Below, piece by piece: positions 3,051 to 24,885 of a DNA stretch of 64,000 bases. The translations under genes and the position numbers were made by a program. Within the stretch, counting starts at the first letter, position 1. Each line of letters starts with the position of its first letter. Below the pieces are notes generated by a model, which searched no databases, was not told the DNA's origin, and was given only the letters and a program-made list of their open reading frames with translations. Source of the stretch: Methylobacter sp. (GTDB lineage Bacteria > Pseudomonadota > Gammaproteobacteria > Methylococcales > Methylomonadaceae); contig JAURZV010000054.1 in the NCBI GenBank assembly GCA_030653175.1, positions 62,001 through 126,000 on the forward strand. The letters run 5' to 3'.

Positions 3051-4025
3051 TTACGACTGCATGGATGCAGGAGGTAGAGTAATGCATGGAGCAATTACCG
3101 AAACTCTCTCGGCTACGCGCATGACTGCGCTTCGTGCCCTCGGATTCCGGGCAATTTCCTGCTGCCCCGCTTTCAGCGCTTTACCCGTTTTCTTCAAGAT
3201 ACCTTTAGTGATATCGACTTCTTTAATTGGCAGCTTTCCCGGGTTATATTTGGCTCCGGACTCAGCCCTGATAAAGCGTTTAACAATTCGGTCTTCCAAT
3301 GAGTGGAAAGAAATAACCACCAAGCGCCCACCTGGCTTCAAAATCCTGGCGGACTGCTGCAAAACGGCCTTTAACTCATCCAACTCGCTATTGATTTCTA
3401 TACGGATTGCCTGAAAACTGCGGGTTGCCGGATGCTTGTGCTTCTCTTTAACCGGCACTACATCTTCAATTAACTTTGCCAACTCTCTGGTTGTTGCAAT
3501 TGGCGATACGACTCTTTTTTCAACAATCGCGTGAGCTATACGCCGTGCGAACCGCTCCTCACCATATTCAAATAAAACCTTAACCAGCTCTTTTTCATCA
3601 ACGCCGGTAAGCCACTGCTCTGCCGTAACACCTGAATTGCCATCCATCCGCATATCCAACGGCCCGTCACGCAAAAAGCTAAAGCCTCTTTCCGGATTAT
3701 CCAATTGAGGCGACGACACCCCCAAGTCCATCAATATACCGTCAATTTTTCCAGCCAAACCTTCACTTGCAATTATATTTTCCAGCTCGGAAAAATGTGT
3801 ATGCTCCAGCTTAAACCGTTTATCTTCCAGCATGGCCTGCGCATAATCGGAGTTAATCGCATCCAAATCCCGATCAAAAGCCAGCAATCGCCCCGATGGA
3901 CCCAGTAGATTTAAAATCCCCTGACTATGACCGCCCCGACCAAAAGTACAATCCAGATAAACGCCGTCTTCTTTAATAGCCAACTGCTGCAAAGCTTCTG
4001 CAAACATAACGGGCAAATGTTCCAC
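3051..4025 (-). CDS. rsmH: RsmH, 16S rRNA m4C1402 methyltransferase
   Basis: SAM-dependent N4-methylation of C1402 in 16S rRNA (324 aa). Visible motifs are DCTFGRGGHS (SAM loop), DLGVSSPQLD, ERGFSF and the C-terminal signature ISFHSLEDRIVK. The preferred start is GTG 4025-4023: GGGAGA (4033-4038) sits 7 nt upstream, whereas the in-frame TTG at 4031 would be only 1 nt away. Homologues normally end near the ARSA..R..ER motif. Here about 16 further residues (SVIAPCITLPPASMQS) are encoded by a dispersed repeat at 3054-3103, so the C-terminus was extended by a repeat insertion before the ftsL start. Confidence 0.97.
   Translation of the reverse strand: MEHLPVMFAEALQQLAIKEDGVYLDCTFGRGGHSQGILNLLGPSGRLLAFDRDLDAINSDYAQAMLEDKRFKLEHTHFSELENIIASEGLAGKIDGILMDLGVSSPQLDNPERGFSFLRDGPLDMRMDGNSGVTAEQWLTGVDEKELVKVLFEYGEERFARRIAHAIVEKRVVSPIATTRELAKLIEDVVPVKEKHKHPATRSFQAIRIEINSELDELKAVLQQSARILKPGGRLVVISFHSLEDRIVKRFIRAESGAKYNPGKLPIKEVDITKGILKKTGKALKAGQQEIARNPRARSAVMRVAERVSVIAPCITLPPASMQS
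3054..3103. repeat. GGAGGTAGAG-family repeat, copy 1 (3' end of rsmH)
   Basis: It reads CGACTGCATGGATGCAGGAG then GTAGAGTAATGCATGGAGCA then ATTACCGAA. It matches 9506-9550 almost base for base, including the outer CGACTGCATGGATGC. Related copies lie at 6311-6359 and 35111-35147. It encodes the RsmH C-terminal tail. Confidence 0.8.
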
Positions 4026-6222: not shown

Positions 6223-8169
6223 ATGCGACCAAAATATAAGCCGCCATTATTATGCGTCCTGCTTCCCGGTCTATTGCTTTGTTCCGGTTGCGTACCCACA
6301 GCCACCACGGGTGCAGGAGGTACGACCGAGGTAGAGCAACGCATGGAGCGGTTGCCGGGTAACGCTTTGCATAAACAAGAAGCACTGGTAACGCAACCTT
6401 TAATAAGGAACGACCAGCCGGGGCAAATGGTTGAATTATACCAGCATCCCTCAACTCCATCGTCTCTGGAACAAAATCAGCAGCGCTTACAGTCCGTCGA
6501 ATCCTTAATTCAGGCCGGAGACGGCAATTCCGCAAAACACGATGCTGATGCCATTAATCCTGCCGGGCTGTCACCCGAACAGCATGCTCAGTTGCGTCTT
6601 CTTTATGCCCAGATCCAGCTCAGCTTTGGCGAGGCTGAACAGGCCATTGAAAACTTGGCGCTGATTCAACCGCAACAGCTCAATCCGGACAATCAAATTA
6701 AATACTTTCAATCGCAAGCCTTTGCCTACTCATTAACAGGAAATCTGCTTGACAGCGCCAAATCCAGAATTGAACTACACCGGTTAATAACAGCGCCCGA
6801 TGAGCTCGAAAAAAATCAGGCCGCCATTCTTGAAGCATTACGCATGCTGCCTGACACCACTTTGCAGACCAACCAAACAGACGCCTTAGCCGGCTGGATG
6901 TCTTTGAGCAACATTTTAAAAAACATAAACCAGCCTGATTTTAATACTCAAATAAGCCAATGGCGCACAGCATTTCCGGCACATCCTGCCGACTTAAGCT
7001 TCTTGGATCAACCTCAAGACATGCTAAAAAATATGCCTTTTCAACCCCAATCAATTGCATTATTACTACCCGGCTCAGGGACTTTTGCCCAAGCCGGTAA
7101 AGCTATCCGTGCTGGATTTATGGCGGCCTACAACCATACGAACAATAATTCCAAGCCTACTATTCGTTTTTACGACAGCGAACAATCGACACCAGCAACT
7201 TTATATAGCCAGGCTGTCGCAGAAGGCGCCCAATTGGTCATCGGCCCACTAGCTAAAGAACACATCCAAAGTTTGGCCGATACCGTTACATTTAACATAC
7301 CCGTGCTGGCATTAAATCATATTCCCGGCCTGCAAAAAAATCAGCTCTACCAGTTTAGTCTTAGTCCGCTGGATGACGCCGACCAAATAACCCATAAAGC
7401 CTGGGCGGATGGCCATCAAAAAGTGCTGCTGCTCGTTCCTGAAAACGCCTCAGGTAAACGCATCGCCAATTATTTAACGGAAGATTGGCAAGACCGGGAC
7501 GGCACTATCCTCGAAACGCAGACCTATAACCCCAAAGAAACCGACTTTTCAGCACCGATTCAAAAACTGCTCAACCTGGATGAAAGCGAACAGCGTTACA
7601 ATAAAATCCTTACTCTAATACCCGGCGTAAAATATACGCCTCGAAGACGGCAGGATGCCGATGCCATTTTGTTAAGCGCCTATAGCGCAGAAGCGCGCTC
7701 CATCAACCCCCAGCTCCAATTTTATCAGGCGGGCGACATCCCCGTTTATGCAATGCCTACCGTTTACACCGGACAAGTCAACGCGTCGCTGGATGCCGAC
7801 CTAAATAAAATAACTTTTTGCGACACCCCTTGGTTATTCAACAAAGCCTATCAGGGAGAACTCGACATGGACGCACTAAAAGAAACCTGGAAGCAATTTC
7901 CCAACTCTTATTTGCGCCTGATTGCGATGGGCATTGACGCCTATAATCTGGCTACACGCTTGGATAATCTGGAAGCCGATCCCTATCCCGGCGCAACCGG
8001 AAACCTGTCGTTGACCACCGACCAGCGCATCAAGCGCAAACTGATATGCGCCAAATTCATGAACGGACAACCTGAAATAAGCGGCTCTTCCACTGAAAAC
8101 ACCGGCTCAACACCTGATAAAGGACAGATTGCCATGCATGAAAACCCGATCAACCATGCTGTTTACTAA
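6223..8169 (+). CDS. lpoA: LpoA, outer-membrane lipoprotein activator of PBP1a
   Basis: Outer-membrane lipoprotein that reaches through the periplasm to activate PBP1a. The start ATG 6223 gives a lipoprotein signal peptide, LLPGLLLCSGC with Cys near residue 23; upstream in-frame codons lie inside rsmI and would bury the signal. The mature protein has an N-terminal helical TPR-like domain (about 100-270) and a C-terminal periplasmic-binding-protein-like domain from SIALLLPGSGTFAQAGKAIR to the end (648 aa; E. coli 678). Just after the lipobox, residues TTGAGGTTEVEQRMERLPGN are encoded by a dispersed GGAGGTAGAG repeat (6311-6359). yraN overlaps its 3' end. Confidence 0.94.
   Translation: MRPKYKPPLLCVLLPGLLLCSGCVPTATTGAGGTTEVEQRMERLPGNALHKQEALVTQPLIRNDQPGQMVELYQHPSTPSSLEQNQQRLQSVESLIQAGDGNSAKHDADAINPAGLSPEQHAQLRLLYAQIQLSFGEAEQAIENLALIQPQQLNPDNQIKYFQSQAFAYSLTGNLLDSAKSRIELHRLITAPDELEKNQAAILEALRMLPDTTLQTNQTDALAGWMSLSNILKNINQPDFNTQISQWRTAFPAHPADLSFLDQPQDMLKNMPFQPQSIALLLPGSGTFAQAGKAIRAGFMAAYNHTNNNSKPTIRFYDSEQSTPATLYSQAVAEGAQLVIGPLAKEHIQSLADTVTFNIPVLALNHIPGLQKNQLYQFSLSPLDDADQITHKAWADGHQKVLLLVPENASGKRIANYLTEDWQDRDGTILETQTYNPKETDFSAPIQKLLNLDESEQRYNKILTLIPGVKYTPRRRQDADAILLSAYSAEARSINPQLQFYQAGDIPVYAMPTVYTGQVNASLDADLNKITFCDTPWLFNKAYQGELDMDALKETWKQFPNSYLRLIAMGIDAYNLATRLDNLEADPYPGATGNLSLTTDQRIKRKLICAKFMNGQPEISGSSTENTGSTPDKGQIAMHENPINHAVY
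6311..6359. repeat. GGAGGTAGAG-family repeat, copy 2 (inside lpoA)
   Basis: It reads GTGCAGGAGGTACGACCGAG then GTAGAGCAACGCATGGAGCG then GTTGCCGGG. Compared with the other copies it has a small internal expansion (GAGGTACGACCGAGGT). It keeps the lpoA frame open and lies in the linker right after the lipidated cysteine. Confidence 0.75.
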
Positions 8170-9243: not shown

Positions 9244-9608
9244 ATGAAAAAACTTTTATTACTGCTGCTGGTGCAGAGCTTTTTTATTACCGGCTGTTCG
9301 ACGGTTACGGCGGGCGGCGCGGAAATAACCGGCTTATCATTATTAAACGACCGGCGCACTCGCAATGCCATTTTGACTGACGAGGCAATTGAAAATCATG
9401 CCAACGCCAAATTGAATGCCTATTATGATTTGCGCGACAAATGCCACTTTAATATCACCGCTTACAACGGTGCAGTGCTGGTCACCGGAGAAACACCCAA
9501 AGACGACTGCATGGATGCAGGAGGTAGAGCAATGCAGGAGCAATTGCCGAAGAATTCCGCGACCGGATTATCGACATTGTTCGCGTCATTCCCAATTTAA
9601 AGCTGGTG
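9244..9608 (+). pseudogene. dolP: dolP (yraP) BON-domain lipoprotein, disrupted by two repeats
   Basis: DolP is an outer-membrane lipoprotein with two BON domains, about 190 residues. Here the signal peptide and lipobox (FFITGC, Cys near 18) and the first half of BON1 (ITAYNGAVLVTGETP) are intact. At 9506-9550 a GGAGGTAGAG repeat is inserted. After it the original BON sequence continues in another frame: from 9546 frame 3 reads AEEFRDRIIDIVRVIPNLKL. The annotated frame instead stops at 9600 after 118 residues. From 9606 a 64-bp tandem repeat begins and the second BON domain is absent. The remnant could still be exported as a short lipoprotein but cannot be a normal DolP. Confidence 0.88.
9506..9550. 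repeat. GGAGGTAGAG-family repeat, copy 3 (breaks dolP)
   Basis: It reads CGACTGCATGGATGCAGGAG then GTAGAGCAATGCAGGAGCAA then TTGCCGAA. The insertion changes the frame of the BON domain, and homologous codons resume out of frame immediately downstream. Confidence 0.82.
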
Positions 9609-9761
9609 CATGGCAGGGATCGCCATGCATGACAAATTTGCCTGGAGCAAATTTGCATTTACCCAAAGGGTGCATGGCAGGGATCGGCATGTATGACAAA
9701 TTTGCCTGGAGCAAATTTGCATTTACCCAAAGGGTGCATGGCAGGGATCGCCATGCATGAA
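9606..9761. repeat. 64-bp tandem repeat, two full units plus a 28-bp partial
   Basis: Units begin at 9606, 9670 and 9734, exactly 64 bp apart. Each unit combines two small palindromes, TGCATGGCAGGGATCGCCAT(GCA) and CAAATTTGCctggaGCAAATTTG, joined by CATTTACCCAAAGGG. The last partial unit ends in ATGCATGA, the start of the next gene. A single copy lies at 24702-24767. Confidence 0.9.
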
Positions 9762-11195
9762 TCCGACGTAAATCAAATCATTAGGTTTTTGAATACATTG
9801 ACTAATATTGCCCCCTTACCTGCCGGTTTCTTAAATCTGTTAGCTGAGATTTTTGTTACCCAAGACATTCTGACTGCGCCTGAAGACTGCTGGACGTACG
9901 GCTATGACAACAGCCGTCGTCATATGCTGCCTCAAGCCGTGGTTTTTCCGACCACGCATGAACAGGTCGTCAGCGTCGTTAATGCCTGTAACAGGTTCAA
10001 CGTTGCACTGACCGCCAGAGGACGAGGTACCGGCACCACCGGCGCGACCGTCCCGCTGAAAGGCGGACTGATTGTGTCGCTGGAACGCATGAACAAACTG
10101 GTCGAATTTTCTCCCGATAATCGCTACATCATTGTGGAACCGGGCATGACTAACCAGCAGGTGCAGGACATCGCCAAAGAAAGAGGCTTTTTCTGGCCGC
10201 CCGACCCGACCAGCGCAGCCTTCTGTAGCGTTGGCGGCAATCTGGCTTATAACTCCGCAGGCCCCAGAGCGGTAAAATACGGCACCCCCAGGGAAAATAC
10301 GCTGGGCTTGCGCGCTGTGACCGGCGCGGGCAAGGAAATCCGCGTTGGCGTTCATACCAGCAAAGGCGTGGTCGGTTATGACCTGACCCGGCTGATACTC
10401 GGCTCGGAAGGCACTCTGGCGATTATTACCCAGGCTACGTTAAAACTGACACCACTGCCGGAAGCGACCAAAACGCTCAGAGCCATATACAATTCCGTTT
10501 TTGATGCCGCCAAAGCCGTTTCCGCGATCATGTCGCAGCCGGTGATTCCCTGTGCGCTGGAGTTTATCGACGGCAATGCCATCAACATGATCCGGCAGTA
10601 TTCGGAAACCGATCTGCCCGAACATGCCGGAGCCATGTTAATGATCGAAGTCGATGGACAATTGGAAGGTTTGGACACGGCGGCCGAAAAAGTGGCTGCC
10701 GCCGCCAAAAACGATGGCCTTTTGGATATTAGACTGGCTCAGACCGAATCGGAAGTTAAAGCCCTCTGGCAAACCCGGAAAGCGCTGTCTCCGGCGTTGC
10801 GTAAAGTGGCTCCGAAAAAAATCAATGAAGATGTGGTAGTGCCGGTTACCGAAATGCCGGCGCTGATAGCCGGGCTGGGTGAGCTTTCAAAGAAATACGA
10901 CCTTGCCATTATTAATTTTGGTCATGCGGGCAACGGCAATATCCATGTTAATTTATTACTCGATCCTGATCAGCCCGAACAAGGCAAAAAAGCCCACGCT
11001 TGTCTGGACGAAATTTTTTCCTTGGTATTGGCGCTAAACGGTACCTTGTCCGGCGAACATGGTGTGGGTCTGGAAAAACGGGATTTTGTCGATCGGGAAC
11101 TGGATGCAAATTCTTTGGAATTGATGCGCGACATTAAGCGCCAATTCGACCCGAACGGCATACTCAATCCCGATAAAATGTTTCCGCTGGTTTAA
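9753..11195 (+). CDS. FAD-linked oxidase, GlcD / D-lactate dehydrogenase type
   Basis: Flavoprotein of 480 residues with an N-terminal FAD_binding_4 (PCMH) domain (TARGRGTGTTGATVPLKGG, PPDPTSAAFCSVGGNLAYNSAG, ILGSEGTLAIIT) and a C-terminal FAD-oxidase_C domain ending GEHGVGLEKRDF...FDPNGILNPDKMF. The family oxidises 2-hydroxyacids such as glycolate or D-lactate; the substrate cannot be read here and no GlcE/GlcF partner is adjacent. The start ATG 9753 lies in the last partial unit of the 64-bp repeat, and the repeat's CAGGGAT supplies a Shine-Dalgarno 7-8 nt upstream. In-frame ATGs at 9738 and 9693 are also repeat-encoded. Confidence 0.9.
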   Translation: MHESDVNQIIRFLNTLTNIAPLPAGFLNLLAEIFVTQDILTAPEDCWTYGYDNSRRHMLPQAVVFPTTHEQVVSVVNACNRFNVALTARGRGTGTTGATVPLKGGLIVSLERMNKLVEFSPDNRYIIVEPGMTNQQVQDIAKERGFFWPPDPTSAAFCSVGGNLAYNSAGPRAVKYGTPRENTLGLRAVTGAGKEIRVGVHTSKGVVGYDLTRLILGSEGTLAIITQATLKLTPLPEATKTLRAIYNSVFDAAKAVSAIMSQPVIPCALEFIDGNAINMIRQYSETDLPEHAGAMLMIEVDGQLEGLDTAAEKVAAAAKNDGLLDIRLAQTESEVKALWQTRKALSPALRKVAPKKINEDVVVPVTEMPALIAGLGELSKKYDLAIINFGHAGNGNIHVNLLLDPDQPEQGKKAHACLDEIFSLVLALNGTLSGEHGVGLEKRDFVDRELDANSLELMRDIKRQFDPNGILNPDKMFPLV

Positions 11196-24120: not shown

Positions 24121-24711
24121 TTATGGTTGATTGATTTGAATATTCTGCCTAAATTCGTTCATATCGGCGTTATCAACACGGTCATAAATTTCTTCAACCG
24201 CCAGCGTTAAGCCAATAGACTCAAAAGTAACCCTATCGCCAAGATAAAAATATTCCGGTTGCCAGTGCTTGCTTTTACGCAGCACTTGTACAGAAACAAA
24301 TTCTTGTTCTATCAAAACATACTCTTTTAAAGAGGGTAAATTAATGTATTGGATAAGTTTTGTTGTTGTATCTCGCATTCTGGTCGATTTAGATAACACT
24401 TCAACAATAATCACCGGAGATGTTGAGAAATAATCATCGCCGGACATTTTGCTACAGTCCACCAGAACATCGGGATAAACATAATCTTTCCCTAAACGTA
24501 CCTTAGTGTCTGCCATGAAAACGGCACAAGGAGTGCCTTTCAAATGATTGCTATATTCACGGGCAATATTCATTGAAATAAAATTATGGTTGTGCTTGGC
24601 GCCAGCCATGGCATAAACCTGACCGTCGATATACTCGCGTTTGACTTCAGAGGTTAATTCGCTTCGCAGATACTCCTCTTCGGTCATGAAAACGCTTTCA
24701 GATTCATGCAT
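24121..24711 (-). CDS. Uma2 family (DUF820) PD-(D/E)XK endonuclease-fold protein
   Basis: Restriction-endonuclease-fold protein of the Uma2 family, abundant in cyanobacteria and mobile regions; function unproven. 196 residues: MTEEEYLRSE...KREYIDGQVYAMAGA, HNFISMNIAREYSNHL, and the nuclease core YVYPDVLVDCSK...PVIIVEVLSKSTRMRD (PD...ExL, with Lys/Ser in place of the usual ExK). The start ATG 24711 and its CAGGGAT Shine-Dalgarno are supplied by a copy of the 64-bp repeat; ATG 24687 (MTEEEYL) is the likely original start. Flanked by duplicated fragments of neighbouring genes. Confidence 0.82.
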   Translation of the reverse strand: MHESESVFMTEEEYLRSELTSEVKREYIDGQVYAMAGAKHNHNFISMNIAREYSNHLKGTPCAVFMADTKVRLGKDYVYPDVLVDCSKMSGDDYFSTSPVIIVEVLSKSTRMRDTTTKLIQYINLPSLKEYVLIEQEFVSVQVLRKSKHWQPEYFYLGDRVTFESIGLTLAVEEIYDRVDNADMNEFRQNIQINQP

Positions 24712-24767
24712 GGCTATCCCTGCCATGCCCCCTTCGGGTAAATGCAAATCTGCTCCAGGCAGATTGG
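24702..24767. repeat. 64-bp repeat, single copy at the Uma2 start
   Basis: The minus strand reads TGCCTGGAGCAGATTTGCAT, then TTACCCGAAGGG, then GGCATGGCAGGGATAGCCAT then GCATGAATC. It is homologous to the units at 9606-9761 and, like them, ends in the ATGCATGAATC of the following gene. Confidence 0.88.
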
Positions 24768-24885
24768 TGATAATGTTGAGTCATCGCATTATTCTCCGGT
24801 TGATTAGTCATGCGTCATGACAGAATTCATGTTGGTTTCCTCGCATTTTCATTAAAAAATGTGTGAAAAACAAGACCCATAGGAA

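Follow-up and report, generated by a model that had tools for sequence, protein, structure and literature searches.

The 64-bp units that occur at two places in the window (that is, the whole 64,000-nucleotide stretch of Methylobacter sp. DNA analysed here) are very probably copies of a non-autonomous mobile palindrome, built of three hairpins, which inserts after TGA, stacks in tandem and travels as an in-frame passenger in conserved genes. As read from the sequence, such copies lengthen the reading frames of conserved genes by at least 21 codons without breaking them. The original prediction saw in the same units a mobile source of Shine-Dalgarno (SD) sequences and start codons for two unrelated genes; the supply of start codons is at best incidental and confined to the beginnings of a few genes.

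Units in the window and architecture of the element

Units had been expected at 9606, 9670 and 9734 with an exact 64-bp period. The period held (TRF: 9605-9760, period 64, 2.4 copies, 95% matches) and two full three-hairpin units are present on the plus strand, at 9633-9696 and at 9697-9760, the latter ending in CCATGCATGA, but what begins at 9606 is a partial unit (9606-9632, plus strand) that comprises the third hairpin only, ends in ATGCATGA and matches model positions 44-63 (13.7 bits, E 0.16). The further unit predicted near 24702-24767 was recovered at 24704-24767 on the minus strand by both the covariance model and the motif detector, and lies in what comparison with relatives suggests is the sixth codon of a Uma2 gene. 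The window's three full units scored 91.5 (9697-9760), 88.1 and 62.1 bits (9633-9696) with the covariance model. The terminal sequence said to be common to the array and the minus-strand unit is indeed shared as an exact 24-mer, GGCAGGGATNGCCATGCATGAATC, at 9740-9763 (+) and 24701-24724 (-), with three mismatches at 9612-9635 (0 expected by chance in 100 shuffles), and ATGCATGAATC reads Met-His-Glu-Ser in both reading frames, as claimed.

Eighteen units, taken from the window and from loci elsewhere in the same genome (L003 and L015 left out), were aligned and revealed three hairpins in a fixed order, i.e., CAAATCTG-CCTGGAG-CAGATTTG, then CCC-GAA-GGG, and lastly a stem of variable sequence enclosing AGG(G)A, with TGA as the end of the element. 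The third stem is highly variable in sequence while its pairing around AGG(G)A is kept. Overall, 95.2% of the cells concerned were paired (0/500 shuffles equally high) and nine of the 20 stem pairs had changed on both sides (1/500 shuffles as high), compared to 18-42% paired cells when the structure was shifted by 1-3 columns as a control. Pair types alone were no more numerous than in the shuffles (18 vs. a mean of 19.1; 471/500 as high). The stems thus covary, which, together with the genome copy count, confirms a palindromic, many-copy repeat. Inspection of the alignment found no inverted repeat linking the element's two ends, only the three separate hairpins, and positions 9500-9900 of the window gave no match to the curated Rfam models at E<=5. 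A motif detector that required the terminal TGA collected 158 copies, with lengths of 63 bp (136 copies), 64 bp (12), 69 bp (6), 62 bp (3) and 61 bp (1); the window's units, at 64 bp, therefore carry one extra base relative to the prevailing form.

Copy number and distribution

Within the genome from which the window derives (4.0 Mb), blastn returned 18 places and the covariance model at least 51 at E<=1 and at least 46 at E<=0.001, these being lower bounds since 150 of the 1523 candidates were scored; the 46 copies correspond to 41 loci after merging neighbours within 150 bp. This abundance, coupled to presence and absence at orthologous sites (below), upholds the prediction that the repeat is mobile. 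From genus to order level, 60 of 101 genomes (this one included) give a match at E<=0.001, compared with none in the other 41, and a 32-base pattern searched over genome contigs gave at least 109 matching stretches, which, among the 80 with titles, belong to Methylococcales methanotrophs except for four titled 'Gammaproteobacteria bacterium'. That is, the element family is patchily distributed in Methylococcales.

At the class level, 54 of 274 genomes match, three of which are this genome and two others of its order, with the remaining 51 matching weakly (best 52.4 bits). Seven of the weak loci were assessed by eye and showed a hairpin-1-like arm pair in 7/7 cases, a CCCG-AGGG core in 6/7 and a CAGG core in 5/7, and the weak matches are probably diverged relatives of the element. 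Diverged three-hairpin repeats can be read at L334-L340 and other class-level matches in other gammaproteobacterial genomes, some of which (G222, G346) hold several equal-scoring copies.

Many further copies lie within a larger palindromic repeat, e.g., the ten read in G048 (L210-L219), with nested units also at L028, L032, L037, L042 and L047. This larger repeat begins with GGCA on the left and ends with TGAATCC or similar on the right, followed in G048 by TGCCGAGATGACGG; unit and larger repeat apparently spread as a composite.

Empty and occupied sites

The most direct evidence for insertion comes from two genes in which occupied and empty versions of the same site can be compared. For hrcA, 23 genomes matched and 22 loci were fetched, 17 of which were readable between fixed anchors (five lacked an anchor). 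The anchored stretch measured 90 bp in six loci, 153 bp in seven, 216 bp in two and 279 bp in one, corresponding to zero, one, two and three copies in 63-bp steps, and 117 bp in one locus with a shortened remnant. At the DNA level, CGCATGA followed directly by ACCAGGGC in an empty relative compares with CGCATGA, CAAATC...GGCATGA and then ATCAAGGC in this genome. Likewise, in rsmD the sequence GGCCTGA-ATCTGG becomes GGCCTGA, CCAATCC...TGTGTGA and then ATCTGG, with two copies (198 bp) at the forward site of this genome and G012 and zero (72 bp) in 20 other loci. These comparisons indicate that insertion in these two genes is exact, takes place after TGA, adds 63 bp per copy and removes nothing. 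TGA stands at both ends of the hrcA and rsmD insertions, which could represent a 3-bp duplication or the element plus its target; the left flank of copies is not always TGA, the counts being 57/158 for all collected copies and 24/34 for those in genes.

The copy differences were borne out in the protein alignments. Among the 21 HrcA rows (incomplete L240 left out), one carries three copies, two carry two, seven carry one, one has the remnant, one (L251) has the start of a copy before unread sequence, and nine have none. The RsmD alignment (19 rows; three of the 22 loci left out) contains, in addition, a second, downstream site with other inserts in L258 and L261.

Copies inside conserved genes

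Copies are not mainly found at gene starts, which goes most of the way towards refuting the original prediction on its own terms. At 14 of the 51 places in this genome the copy is in frame inside an ORF that spans the site and remains open, at five it breaks the ORF that would result from joining its flanks, and at 32 there is no such ORF. By inspection, the five interrupting places are a broken dolP-like gene, an antisense ORF next to FtsQ, and the gene boundaries PrmC/JAB, LptM/LysA and MreC/MreD. Pfam identifies MreD and FtsQ; the other names are what we take these genes to be.

Based on Pfam and NCBIfam, the host genes encode HrcA (three copies), RsmD (two copies forward, one inverted and a fourth, weak match at E 0.0136), ComF/GntX (two copies in opposite orientations; NCBIfam scores under its cut-offs), TilS, HrpA, an efflux protein of the outer membrane (OEP), UvrC, YhdP and BamC/NlpB; one host, C71, matched no family in either collection. 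The BamC/NlpB copy is in frame by its ORF and is absent from the 14/51 count as it is longer, diverged and cut at other bounds there. In UvrC, the insert is contained in the RNase H domain match, where residues 386-565 (180 residues) cover 159 profile positions; in TilS it separates the last two domain matches, and in RsmD it directly follows the DPPF motif (compared with E. coli structure 2fpo). The alignment of HrcA to its solved relative 1stz covers only the region upstream of the insert, and AlphaFold predictions for the insert-bearing HrcA and RsmD were too poor for use (mean pLDDT 42.4 and 41.2, respectively).

Further in-frame hosts were seen in relatives (L106, L111, L121, L115, L163 and L193), presumably including RnfC, aminopeptidase N and a spermidine-synthase-like protein. 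At L139 (about 6750-7010), roughly four tandem units lie at the N-terminal end of a gene that we take to encode a U32 peptidase, reading MSGTNLHLPEG... and then KQVELLSPAGTL.

How consistently the host frame is kept was quantified on 134 arrays with 400-nt flanks, obtained after tandem merging and duplicate removal. Joining the flanks gave an ORF of at least 200 codons for 28 arrays (several being the same site in related genomes, and L063 and L066 possibly non-coding ORFs) and no such ORF for 106; 27 of the 28 were in frame and open, the exception, L180, looking like a two-gene boundary. Length was divisible by three in 34/34 in-gene copies vs. 99/115 others, and the sense frame was open in 24/24 distinct in-gene sequences vs. 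54/90 others (Fisher p = 4e-5). The in-gene copies examined measure 63 or 69 bp and hence add 21 or 23 codons while keeping the host frame. The in-gene class needs intact flanks, which makes host genes killed long ago invisible to this count. General selection for open frames across all copies was not supported, the 105 distinct units of the family as a whole being no better than their shuffles, and this lack of enrichment indicates that coding compatibility is filtered rather than built in.

Gene starts near the units

For the GlcD-like FAD oxidase, the proposal that the unit supplies its SD and start codon finds no support in the relatives, in which the gene starts downstream at TTG. Twenty loci were compared, 18 of them anchored and 17 of these from relatives. 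In 11 of the 17, GlcD is preceded by the end of a presumably dolP/BON-like gene (...HQSDVNQIITVFEYID and a stop, or a close variant) with the protein tail HQSDVNQII or a close variant, and in six this tail is absent. Ten of the 11 tail-bearing relatives have no ATG in the GlcD frame between the preceding stop and LNTLTNIAPLP (L286 has one), so GlcD must start at TTG there. Judging from these relatives and Pfam, GlcD in the window would extend from such a TTG over 9789-11195 (+; LNTLTNIAPLP...), and 9244-9788 (+), with the tail HESDVNQII, is the remnant of the dolP/BON-like lipoprotein gene (no Pfam match for 9244-9600), which has been disrupted by a different repeat (near 9513-9535), by a deletion within the gene, by the units and by the loss of 1 nt just before the GlcD start. 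This genome is one base shorter than its relatives just before the TTG, and the deletion joins the tail (MHESDVNQII) to the GlcD frame, which makes the units look like the start of GlcD; the MHES in question belongs to the broken gene. G010 has a unit at the same place and its own internal deletion in the dolP-like gene. As for the SD, AGGGA was predicted 7-8 nt upstream of the start; counted on the sequence, it ends 5 nt short of the first ATG and 9 nt short of the second.

The other repeat, GGATGCAGGAGGTAGAGCAATGC, occurs in the window at 9513-9535 and 3063-3085 and has 121 matches in this genome with up to three mismatches (0 for a backwards control). Holding both GTAG and an AGGAGG...ATG string, it resembles a REP of the GTAG type and could pass for a start signal.

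The case of Uma2 is mixed. In the 12 of 30 loci that were anchored (this genome included), the closest relative, G010 (92% identical), reads ATGGCCCAACAACATCAATCTGAAAGC without a unit, compared with ATGACTCAACATTATCA, the 64-bp unit and then ATCTGAAAGC in the window. By comparison with L305 and L331, the native ATG (24784-24782, minus strand) lies upstream of the unit and is now out of frame; its frame (24704-24784, -) stops after 26 codons at the unit's terminal TGA, which overlaps ATGCATGA. The unit holds an in-frame ATGCATG, the first ATG of ATGCATGA being in frame with Uma2, and the Uma2-family gene (Pfam; relatives) is readable from there over 24121-24711 (-; MHESESVFMTEEEYL...). Therefore, the unit offers a possible start, as predicted, though not the native one: its ATGCATGA may act as a restart after the native start was put out of frame, stop-restart coupling is plausible, and a start at 24687 appears equally possible.

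A minority of copies lie at 5' ends of genes (TsaC/Sua5, TlpA-like, MreD, HypA and Uma2), where the terminal ATGA is, or adjoins, the start codon. In the TsaC and TlpA-like genes an in-frame ATGA stands on the left as well; since an ATGA start contains the TGA insertion site, such starts may be duplicated rather than delivered. The ATGCATGA end of the 64-bp subfamily coincides with the MHELSL start of HypA-like genes, two of which have a unit (L086, C21:40019) or a weak remnant (L081, C43:30024; E 0.007) directly before that start, the HypA family match coming from L086 alone.

Proposed mechanism and alternative explanations

Under the mechanism that we favor, the element would be carried to a TGA by a trans-acting enzyme, possibly a transposase of the HUH/Y1 type; out-of-frame insertions would be eliminated by selection, and those that persist in genes would be near-neutral passengers at tolerant positions. 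Tandem copies would arise as each right end recreates the TGA target, or by slippage, and where the ATGA start codon is itself the target, a start would be found at both ends of the insertion. In the window, two 64-bp units would have entered a decaying dolP-like gene adjoining GlcD, and a third would have frameshifted the native Uma2 start, leaving ATGCATGA as a restart that overlaps the resulting stop. A search for the mobilising enzyme found no Y1 transposase linked to a copy in this genome, the nearest of 13 Y1_Tnp genes (whose loci gave weak model matches, best 11.2 bits, E 0.44) being 3954 bp away, and no autonomous version, as all 28 matches to the hairpin-1 pattern (up to three mismatches) fell on known places or on the TilS trailing fragment.

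A mobile start cassette, carrying SD and ATG and rewiring gene starts, would explain why the unit's ATGCATG is in frame with Uma2 and the native start is not, and why copies sit at the 5' ends of TsaC/Sua5, TlpA-like, MreD and HypA genes. It does not fit the downstream start of GlcD in relatives, the in-frame left ATGA at TsaC and TlpA-like, or the prevalence of places within ORFs or with no ORF across them, and we regard it as unlikely. We are similarly doubtful that the unit is no passenger but is maintained by selection, either as a peptide module of benefit or as a functional RNA structure. Compensatory stem changes and the maintenance of frame in diverged HrcA genes are what such selection would produce, but the host genes are unrelated, the forward RsmD insert is absent from 20 of 22 loci, and L238, L242 and L245 carry HrcA inserts whose hairpins, peptide or length are eroded but whose frame is preserved. 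Finally, the genome is a draft in 109 contigs, which speaks for an assembly or binning artefact; yet an HrcA insert is also present in G020, a member of the same genus with a 2936421-base contig, and copies are also found in single-contig genomes, which leaves this explanation with hardly any probability.

Hence, we favor the mobile three-hairpin palindrome carried as an in-frame passenger. A broader version of it, which we advance only tentatively and consider somewhat less probable than its opposite, is that still-active mobile 21-codon hairpin modules lengthen proteins stepwise across Methylococcales and, in diverged form, in other Gammaproteobacteria. Entry would take place after an out-of-frame TGA, and a unit whose length is divisible by three and which ends in TGA could keep the frame readable, recreate the target and so allow stacking inside conserved genes.

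Relation to known elements and significance

Non-autonomous elements derived from IS200/IS605 have hairpins near both ends, a short fixed target and no long target duplication. The element described here shares these features, and differs in that no linked Y1 transposase was found in this genome.

The Rickettsia palindromic elements (RPEs), as presented in sections of PMC3767692, PMC2229807 and PMC10969869, are palindromes of 105-146 or about 150 bp that lie in frame within conserved genes of Rickettsia and Wolbachia, including an excinuclease gene, with the same site occupied in orthologues and the string ATGAC characteristic of RPE-4/6/7. Set beside these descriptions, our element is likewise palindromic, many-copy and in frame in conserved ORFs; however, it consists of 63/69-bp three-hairpin units in 0-3 tandem copies per site, and its host is Methylobacter (Methylococcales). 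Intragenic GTAG/CGTC REPs, according to portions of PMC3733652, are small palindromes found singly, as dimers or clustered within the ORFs of several bacteria; many of them lie in genes for replication and repair, and for those near the N-terminus a wrong start is suspected. Terms beginning 'methylo' are absent from the main text of PMC3733652. In contrast to these REPs, the units here have three different hairpins each, lack the GTAG tag at their ends (alignment and consensus A2 inspected) and flank no RAYT gene at the 13 Y1_Tnp loci of this genome; the CGTC tag is also missing, although the complement of tandem arrays often has TGTCAT, one base off, beside hairpin 3. In-frame gene fusions are reported, in part of PMC2229807, for the enterobacterial ERIC, Yersinia YPAL and Neisseria Correia MITEs, which are about 100-200 bp and mostly have terminal inverted repeats, unlike the present element. 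Since it has neither REP tag and is built differently, and since this genome has no transposase linked to it, the element is best filed as a variant of the known in-frame palindrome kind; that is, it is a family separate from RPEs (compared by description) and intragenic REPs, and similar to them in action. Literature searches returned no report of this repeat in methanotrophs in the titles and abstract beginnings among the matches listed, where the peptide strings DLHLPEG and LPEGCRAG also had 0 occurrences.

In practical terms, start-codon annotation near such repeats is unreliable. More broadly, Rickettsia, the best-known source of in-frame mobile palindromes, is difficult to work with, and a free-living methanotroph genus with zero-, one-, two- and three-copy alleles of the same gene makes the mover of such elements, the tolerance of proteins to them and their role in protein evolution testable.
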